NCBI GenBank assembly: GCA_017429945.1
Contig: JAFRNY010000053.1
Span: 1 to 36,543 of the forward strand
From: Bacteroidaceae bacterium
GTDB taxonomy: Bacteria; Bacteroidota; Bacteroidia; Bacteroidales; Bacteroidaceae
Reading direction: 5' to 3'
Length of the DNA stretch: 36,543 nucleotides
Shown here: positions 7,314 to 10,300 of the stretch, piece by piece
How positions within the stretch are numbered: the stretch's first letter is position 1
Layout: each line of letters starts with the position of its first letter
Notes under the pieces: model-generated
What the model was told of the DNA's origin: nothing
The model's database searches: none
The model's input: only the letters and a program-made list of their open reading frames with translations
Program-made: the position numbers and the translations under genes

Positions 7314-10300
7314 TTATGATTTGAGGATTTCGCGGAGGAAGGCTGGCGTGAAGCCTTTCTTGCATCTTGCCACATGCTCGGGAGTGCCGGTGGCGAGGAT
7401 GGTGCCGCCGCCGCGCCCGCCTTCAGGACCGAGGTCTATGATGTAGTCGGCGCTCTTGATGACGTCGAGGTTGTGCTCGATGACGATGACCGTGTTGCCA
7501 CGGTCTACGAGACGCTGCAGCACTGATAGCAGTACGCGTATGTCCTCGAAGTGGAGTCCGGTGGTGGGCTCATCGAGGATGTAGAGTGTGCGGCCCGTGT
7601 CGCGCTTGGCAAGTTCGGTGGCGAGTTTCACGCGCTGGCTTTCGCCGCCAGAGAGCGTTGTGGATGATTGTCCGAGCTTTATGTAGCCGAGACCCACGTC
7701 CTGCAACGTCTTTATCTTCTGAAGTATGGTTGGCTGGTTCTCGAAGAACTCCACGGCGCGGTTGATGGTCATATCGAGGACGTCGGCTATAGACTTGCCT
7801 TTGAAACGAACCTCCAGCGTCTCGCGGTTGTAGCGGCGCCCGCGGCAGTCCTCGCACGGCACCATCACGTCGGGCAGGAAATTCATCTCTATGGTTTTGT
7901 AGCCATTGCCGCCGCACGTCTCGCAGCGGCCGCCTTTGACGTTGAACGAGAAGCGACCGGCCTTGTAGCCACGGATGCGCGCCTCGGGCAGCGAGACGAA
8001 GAGGTCGCGGATGTCGGAGAAGACGCCCGTGTAGGTGGCTGGGTTTGAGCGCGGCGTGCGCCCGATGGGGCTTTGGTCTACGTTGACCACCTTGTCGATG
8101 TTCTCAAGTCCCAGGACTTTGTCGTAGGGTAGGGGGTCGCGCAGTGAGCGGTAGAAATGTTGTGAGAGGATAGGCTGAAGCGTGTCGTTGATGAGGCTGG
8201 ATTTACCTGAGCCCGAGACGCCGGTGACGCATATGAGCGTGCCGAGGGGGAAATCGACGCTGACGTTCTTGAGGTTGTTGCCCCGTGCGCCTTTGATTGA
8301 GAGCGTCTTGCCGTTGCCTTTGCGGCGCACTGCTGGAATCTCTATGGTGCGCTGACCGGTGAGGTAGAGGCGGGTGAGAGACCCACCCTCGGCCCCCTCC
8401 CGTCCCCCCCGAGGGGGGGCGAACAGGTCCTCAGGATTCCCATTGGAAACGGACGCCCCCCCTCGGGGGGGACGGGAGGGGGCTGAGGGGGCTGAGGGGG
8501 CTGTCAGCTCCTCATAGGTTCCCTGAAACACCACTTCGCCGCCTTTGCGGCCGGCGGCGGGTCCCATGTCGACGATGTAGTCGGCCTCGCGCATCATCTC
8601 TTCGTCGTGCTCTACGACGATTACGGTGTTGCCCGTGTCGCGCAGCTCTTTGAGCGAATGAATAAGACGTCGGTTGTCGCGCTGGTGCAGTCCTATCGAG
8701 GGCTCGTCGAGGATGTAGAGCACGTTGACGAGCTTCGACCCAATCTGCGTGGCCAGGCGTATGCGCTGGCTCTCGCCGCCGGAGAGACTCATCGAGGAGC
8801 GCGACAGGCTGAGGTAGTCGAGACCTACGTCCATGAGGAATTGTACGCGCGAGCGTATCTCTTTGAGAATCTCGGGCGCTATCTTTTGCTGGCGGGGCGT
8901 CAGCTGTGGGTCGGCAAGCCAGGCGTGGAGCTCCTTGATGTCCATGTCGGCCAGCTCGGCGATGTTCTTGTCGCCGATGCGGAAATGAAGGGCTTCGCGG
9001 TTGAGGCGTGCTCCGTGGCAGTCGGGGCATACGTCGGTCTTCGAGAACTGTTCGGCCCATTTCTGTGCCGTGGCGCTGGCATCGCTGTCCTGCATCATCT
9101 CGATGTATTTCACGAGGCCGTCATAGGCGATGTAGTAGTCGTTGGAGGTGTGAGCCGTGGCAGCGGGTATGCGCAGGCGTTCGGGACAACCGTTGAGAAT
9201 CTCGTCGATGGCCTCGTCGGGAACGTCGCGCAGCGGTGTCTGTAGTGTGGCGCCATAGCGCTCGAGCAGTGCCTCCATCTGCCAGAAGATCATCTGGCTC
9301 TTGGCCTTGCCCAGGGGGGCTATACCGCCGTCTTTGACCGACAGCGAGCGGTCGGGTATGACCTTGTTCACGTCGATGAGGTTGACGTAGCCCAGGCCCT
9401 TGCAGCGGGGGCACCAGCCCTGAGGTGAGTTGAACGAAAAGTTGTGGGGCGCGGGGTCGGCATAACTCATGCCTGTGGTGGGGCACATGAGGCGGCGCGA
9501 GTAGTGGCGCAGCTTATTGTTGTCGGAGTCGAGCACCATCATAAGGCCTTCGCCCATCTTCAGACAGAGCTCCACGCTCTTGCGGAGGCGTGAGAGGGAC
9601 GACTCTGCAGACCCACCTCCCGCTGGAGACCCACCCCCCGCCCTCCCTGTGAGGGAGGGGGCGGAATGACCTGTAGAGGGTAAACTATTGTAATCTGCGT
9701 TATGCTCTGTAGCTGGTAAACCTGTGTTATGCTCTGTAACTGGTGAACTGTTGTTGTCGGCGGAATAATCTGAAGGCTGCAAGCCTTTATTTTCAGTGGT
9801 AACCACTCCCTCCCTCACAGGGAGGGCGGGGGGTGGGTCTCCTGCTGCCGCTTGGTCTTGGGGTGCTTTCAACCTATCTACGACGACCTCGATGGAGTGG
9901 TTGCTGTAGCGGTCGAGCTTCATGCCGGGCACGAGTTCCTGCATCTCGCCGTCGATGCGCACCCAGATGAATCCCTTGCGGCGTGTGCTCTCGAGGAGCT
10001 CGCGGTAGTGACCTTTTCGGTTGCGCACGAGTGGTGCCAACAACTGTATCTTGTGGCCGCCGTAGTCTTTCTGGATGAGTTCTACGATTTGATCCTCGTT
10101 GTATTTCACCATGGCCTCGCCAGTCTGCCACGAGAAAGCGTCGCCGGCACGAGCGAAGAGCAGGCGGAGGTAGTCGTAGATTTCCGTCGTGGTGCCTACG
10201 GTGGAGCGCGGGTTCTTGTTCGTTGTCTTCTGCTCGATGCTGATGACGGGCGAGAGGCCGGTTATCTTGTCGACATCGGGTCGCTGCAGTCCTCCGAGGA

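Follow-up and report, generated by a model that had tools for sequence, protein, structure and literature searches.

The window analysed here is a stretch of 36,543 nucleotides from a Bacteroidaceae draft genome. Its uvrA gene carries two palindromic elements within one reading frame, and a further palindrome occupies an intergenic gap. The features are located as follows:

7314-10493, minus strand: uvrA, an ORF of 1059 codons with the Pfam domains UvrA_inter, UvrA_DNA-bind and ABC_tran
8386-8489, minus strand: second palindromic element in uvrA, of another family, in frame in the loop between the UvrA halves
9605-9622: extra tandem copy of the outer end of the first element (18 bp, 89% alike), adding six codons
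9625-9842, minus strand: first palindromic element in uvrA, of the AGAC[C/T]C...CCCTCCCT family, in frame, with perfect 35-bp inverted arms
9625-9659: left arm of the first element, an outer tail followed by the CCCTCCCTGTGAGGGAGGG hairpin
9695-9748: two tandem 27-bp copies inside the first element, adding nine codons
9808-9842: right arm of the first element, the exact reverse complement of the left arm
14335-14493: intergenic copy of the same superfamily as the first element, with 49-nt arms that are 86% complementary

The arms of the first element lie 148 bp apart, and each holds a CCCTCCC/GGGAGGG hairpin, as had been read from the sequence before. The initial annotation had proposed an in-frame palindromic element at 9609-9842 with 34-bp arms, within the insertion region of the first half of UvrA. 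The element is real: the frame is open throughout its arms and interior, UvrA domains are recognised on both sides in a Pfam scan, and the insert falls inside UvrA_inter, whose Pfam match ends at profile position 84 of 109. The right end was also correct, but the arms measure 35 bp and the left limit is 9625, position 9609 falling in the extra 18-bp copy of the outer end. The accompanying statement that the rest of UvrA is intact holds for the recognised domains but overlooked the second in-frame palindrome; apart from the two insertions, the ORF and its Pfam domains are intact. The RNA of 9600-9850 is predicted to fold at -119.1 kcal/mol, compared with a mean of -79.5 for 200 shuffles (z -8.7), none of which folded as well. 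Rfam matches at gathering score were absent from 7000-15600, and the compact form of the element had no match in the phage collection. The second element has 36-nt arms that are 97% complementary and gave 65 alignments in its own genome, and the intergenic copy sits between ORFs ending at 14330 and 14585. Other repeats near uvrA include nested inverted repeats in the adjacent gap at 6653-7037 (arms of 30, 30 and 41 nt), an AT-rich tandem array just upstream at 10532-10672 (periods of 14, 21 and 35 bp), and a 7-bp tandem repeat at 12530-12578, which apparently codes for the N-terminal end of the following ORF.

A uvrA protein match was present in all 61 genomes searched, and the two insertion sites were compared in an alignment of 81 UvrA proteins, namely 80 named loci and the one in the window. 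At the first site, the conserved residues on either side are separated by a loop with a median length of 8, and exactly 8 in 55 of the 81 proteins, compared with 93 in the window; the net gain is therefore about 85 residues rather than the roughly 78 codons first estimated. The loop at the second site has a median of 4 residues (exactly 4 in 69 of 81) and reaches 40 in the window. On the solved UvrA chain 9gxk_A the inserts map between residues 230 and 237 and to residues 603-607, respectively, and both sites are short connections in that structure. The first insert was rightly described as foreign to the normal UvrA plan, since the loop of the relatives in this alignment is short and contains no homologous domain.

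The first uvrA element gave 112 alignments at E <= 0.001, in dozens of places, in its own genome, a short-read draft of 92 contigs with 82.4% completeness. A survey of the surroundings of these matches found 81 arms, 79 of them orientable, spread over the window and 26 further arm-bearing stretches, and the arms are dispersed both in and between genes. The arm unit is composed of AGAC[C/T]C[A/T]CCCCCCG, followed by CCCTCCCTNNNAGGGAGGG and by an inner part resembling AGCGGTTACCTTTGAAGAA, and the copies have sharp ends at AGAC[C/T]C. Nine of the 17 inward-facing arm pairs lie within ORFs that stay open for 50 codons or more to either side, and these pairs measure 115, 115, 115, 115, 116, 116, 118, 133 and 214 bp; the other eight span 153-254 bp and have either no open frame or one. 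The pairs within ORFs are shorter (Mann-Whitney p 0.002), a comparison in which the two properties are not independent, as short copies are more easily open by chance. Target-site duplications were seen at one of the 17 pairs against a shuffle mean of 1.1, that is, none beyond chance. Matches to the element DNA occurred in 17 of the 61 genomes, comprising the genome of the window and 16 of the 36 others from the same genus, with none in the 24 genomes from other families. In related genomes that were assembled separately, members of the family lie in other genes whose frames remain open over a long stretch.

Coding potential is unevenly distributed over the reading phases. Of the 18 compact copies counted, 15 are open in one particular phase on the forward strand and 14 on the reverse strand, and the other phases are open in 1 to 3; in the 13 long copies, the highest count for any phase is 4. 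These counts lean towards open copies, because the stretches of the relatives were chosen from element matches. For four copies, each common to two genomes, substitutions at codon positions 1, 2 and 3 number 27, 30 and 50 within the element and 96, 77 and 341 in the flanks (Fisher p 1.8e-4), with the reservation that some of these sites could be independent insertions. Judging from this more even spread over codon positions, the inserts appear to be tolerated filler whose frame is kept.

The host genes are of many kinds. Arms or arm pairs were found in 22 ORFs of the genome of the window, and 17 of the 20 that were scanned gave a Pfam match at E <= 0.001. A Pfam domain spans the element in the CbiD, Peptidase_M16_C, HATPase_c and Aminotran_1_2 ORFs, the HATPase_c one matching a histidine kinase, and further element-bearing ORFs match MutS2, valyl-tRNA synthetase and PurM. 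Element-bearing ORFs in relatives match PurL, FeoB, Mfd, beta-galactosidase, TsaD and altronate dehydratase, in stretches picked non-randomly on the basis of previous hits to the DNA or peptide of the element. A separate observation concerns L125:1504-3606, where CbiJ and CbiD are fused in one ORF and a further palindrome-like peptide separates the two domains.

The same UvrA and PurM loops have been filled repeatedly by unrelated elements. When the UvrA sites were placed on a tree of the conserved columns, palindrome-type inserts at the first site were seen in the window gene, L057 and L118 and, as a single insert common to both, in L040 and L041, and those at the second site, of differing families, in the window gene, L040, L043 and L057; the loops of other close relatives are short or non-palindromic. 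In PurM, the site is empty in the related genome G019, a relic is common to the genome of the window, G016 and G015, and different palindromes occupy G003 and G010.

Several elements lie at gene starts. In FolD of the genome of the window, the only start codons ahead of the domain lie inside the element, the next one being 31 codons past the arm. Two of seven relatives (G003 and G019) have a FolD that also begins in a palindrome, and the other five (G016, G029, G018, G010 and G032) have an ordinary ATG. From these positions, the elements appear to supply the start codon and N-terminus of FolD. The amino-acid kinase, which from its motif we take to be ArgB, starts in a palindrome in the genome of the window, G003 and G019, has both kinds of start in G016, and has an ordinary one in G015, G029 and G032. 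PyrI, RibF and a tetrapyrrole methylase in the genome of the window begin inside or just before an arm, and formyltransferase and Lgt ORFs have an arm at the N-terminus, the formyltransferase with an ordinary ATG after the arm.

Longer copies of the family contain a gene of their own. Three inward arm pairs 471-554 bp apart (L136, L139 and L121) enclose an ORF matching DUF559, a PD-(D/E)XK, Vsr-like endonuclease. It is open for 121 codons in L136 and broken by a stop in L139 and L121, and these three are the only copies in the genome of the window in which the nuclease was found. Scores against PF04480 are 115.8 bits for L136 (1999-2361, E 1.1e-33), 106.8 for an open part of L139 and 79.0 for a part of L121, compared with a curated cut-off of 20.6. 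DUF559 also lies between arms in the relative G010 (L243). L136, with its open nuclease, lies at the RibF locus, and its orthologue in G016, L245, is without L136:2131-2356, a 226-bp deletion that falls within the nuclease ORF; the element parts of this pair are 98.4% and 95.8% identical, as against 85.7% and 82.5% for the flanks.

The association of DUF559 with hairpin arms extends beyond Bacteroidales. A tblastn search with the nuclease yielded 35 plasmid records, and 20 loci were examined from 30 listed, with Neisseria, E. coli and some near-duplicates left out. Inverted hairpin arms stood clearly above controls at 12 of these 20 loci, in three other phyla. Compared with 20 shuffles, the first ten loci comprised eight clear and two marginal cases, and two of the ten were still clear when re-tested against control windows from the same record. 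Ten further loci, compared with 22 such windows, gave four clear, one marginal and five negative cases. Marginal arms were seen at L261, L262 and L265, and arms were absent at L263, L264, L268, L269 and L271. The clear cases come from Deinococcus, Sphingomonas, Qipengyuania, Azospirillum and cyanobacteria. One methylase ORF of 1621 codons, from Pseudanabaena galeata, contains DUF559 and both hairpin arms in frame (L266:5933-6412).

Taken together, we consider that the uvrA insert is probably a miniature, non-autonomous (MITE-like) derivative of a DUF559-nuclease mobile element, read through in frame. The element would have landed in a solvent-type loop of uvrA, where it would be read as extra protein; the preserved frames suggest that the inserts in general are translated. 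The DUF559 copies are the putative mobilising parent of the family, and the nuclease might act by recognising or cutting at the hairpin arms or the targets; another mobiliser may be missing from a draft of 82.4% completeness. Miniature copies may arise by internal deletion and be moved in trans. Insertions that break genes would be lost, and those in flexible loops or at gene starts would survive and drift. The likeness to MITEs lies in the terminal inverted repeats (the outer AGAC[C/T]C end plus arms), in the longer gene-carrying copies with the same ends (L136, L139, L121 and L243) and in the deletion pair L136/L245. In contrast to MITEs, target-site duplications were not detected, and the enclosed gene is a DUF559 nuclease, not a known transposase. 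The part of PMC12907096 that deals with Caulobacter DUF559 describes it as a Vsr-like, repair-type enzyme.

Alternatively, a RAYT (Y1 HUH) transposase might move the family, whose members would then be REP/BIME elements comparable to REPINs. The inverted hairpin pairs resemble REP doublets, the genome of the window has one Y1_Tnp gene, and the absence of target duplications fits such a system. However, this gene (L039, G000:C69), the only one found in the draft, is flanked by a different repeat, GGGTACGAGCGCAGCGAGCACCC, as judged by eye, so that a cognate RAYT flanked by the same repeat was not encountered; GTAG lies near the stem in only 7 of 79 arms and CGTC in none, and the long copies enclose DUF559 rather than Y1. 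We therefore regard mobilisation by a RAYT as unlikely.

Less probable still is a functional role, in which the insert would change UvrA, for example at the UvrB interface, and be maintained by selection. The position of the insert in UvrA_inter is compatible with this, MutS2 and Mfd-like ORFs in this genus also bear elements, and PMC3733652 speculates that the presence of REPs in repair genes is not accidental. On the other hand, the loop of the relatives is empty, short or filled by unrelated palindromes, the third-position bias is much weaker in element codons than in the flanks, and the hosts range over many kinds of genes. Because relatives are without the insert and substitutions are evenly spread, we rejected a new functional domain of UvrA as the main explanation. 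The strong RNA hairpin would also suit removal or skipping of the element during expression, by RNA processing or ribosome bypass, such that it never becomes protein; bypassed palindromes are known in yeast mitochondria, according to a section of PMC6649704. This is very improbable, as bypass would not require the in-gene copies to keep the frame free of stops, which they do, and some copies hold the only nearby start codon. Misassembly, to which repeats in a short-read draft of 92 contigs are prone, is hardly credible, because the interior of the uvrA element differs from other copies and the family also occurs in frame in other genes of related genomes from separate studies, with insertion sites in MutS2 and PurM in common.

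The reading of the uvrA insert as a miniature nuclease-element derivative can be set beside several known systems. Rickettsia palindromic elements (RPEs), which the initial annotation had named as precedent, are described in part of PMC10969869 as palindromes of about 100-150 bp that occur in frame in unrelated genes, form several families and are tolerated in housekeeping proteins; a summary is also given in PMC6649704. The elements found here are likewise palindromic and in frame in unrelated genes, with compact copies of 115-118 bp, although the uvrA copy, with its 18-bp and 27-bp duplications, is larger than the RPE range. They belong to another phylum, and the resemblance concerns how they work. 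Further differences are that a compact copy here can usually be read in one shared phase from either strand and that the long copies contain DUF559. The precedent holds to this extent, with the amendment that REPs inside genes have been published for other phyla as well, including in uvrA of Opitutus terrae and Thioalkalivibrio, with loops suggested as tolerated sites (PMC3733652). In the relevant part of that paper, Bacteroidetes are described for CGTC repeats only, and in-gene sites mostly differ between species. GTAG/CGTC REPs are similar in having hairpin units, often as inverted dimers, in uvrA and other genes, as far as that account goes; unlike them, most arms here are without the tetranucleotide tag, and the same loops are reused. 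The enterobacterial RU-1, RU-2 and RU-3 are small mobile repeats with frames maintained in genes (abstract of PMC2759123), but they occur in other organisms and differ in sequence, and the abstract mentions no nuclease parent.

The earlier interpretation of the uvrA insert as a repeat tolerated in frame is supported by these comparisons. Coding palindromes were already known, and the new aspect is a Bacteroidales case with what is likely a new parent. A literature search returned no Bacteroidales coding palindromes and no DUF559 palindromic element, mostly on titles and opening lines, which is weak evidence; titles and abstract openings of the DUF559 literature contained no hairpin-armed mobile element around DUF559. 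New here are the repeated use of the same loops, the element-supplied start codons and the long copies enclosing DUF559. Coding palindromes, known so far from Rickettsia and from scattered cases of REPs, are thereby extended to gut-type Bacteroidales, the genome of the window being related to rumen bacteria, and the elements also take over start codons of host genes. Through the link to DUF559, the question of what mobilises palindromes without a RAYT gains a testable answer.

A wider reading, for which we see the balance as about even, is that DUF559 with hairpin arms forms an undescribed class of mobile element in at least four phyla, whose miniatures feed new loops and starts in this Bacteroidales genus and whose nuclease copies can be read as a host domain. 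If this is true, miniatures open in one phase on both strands would make roughly one insertion in three translatable in either orientation. The class would then steadily provide the housekeeping genes of the genus with new protein loops and start codons, and whole nuclease-bearing copies could be read as a host protein domain, with the Pseudanabaena methylase ORF as an example. As a separate observation, that methylase ORF lies near BREX genes.
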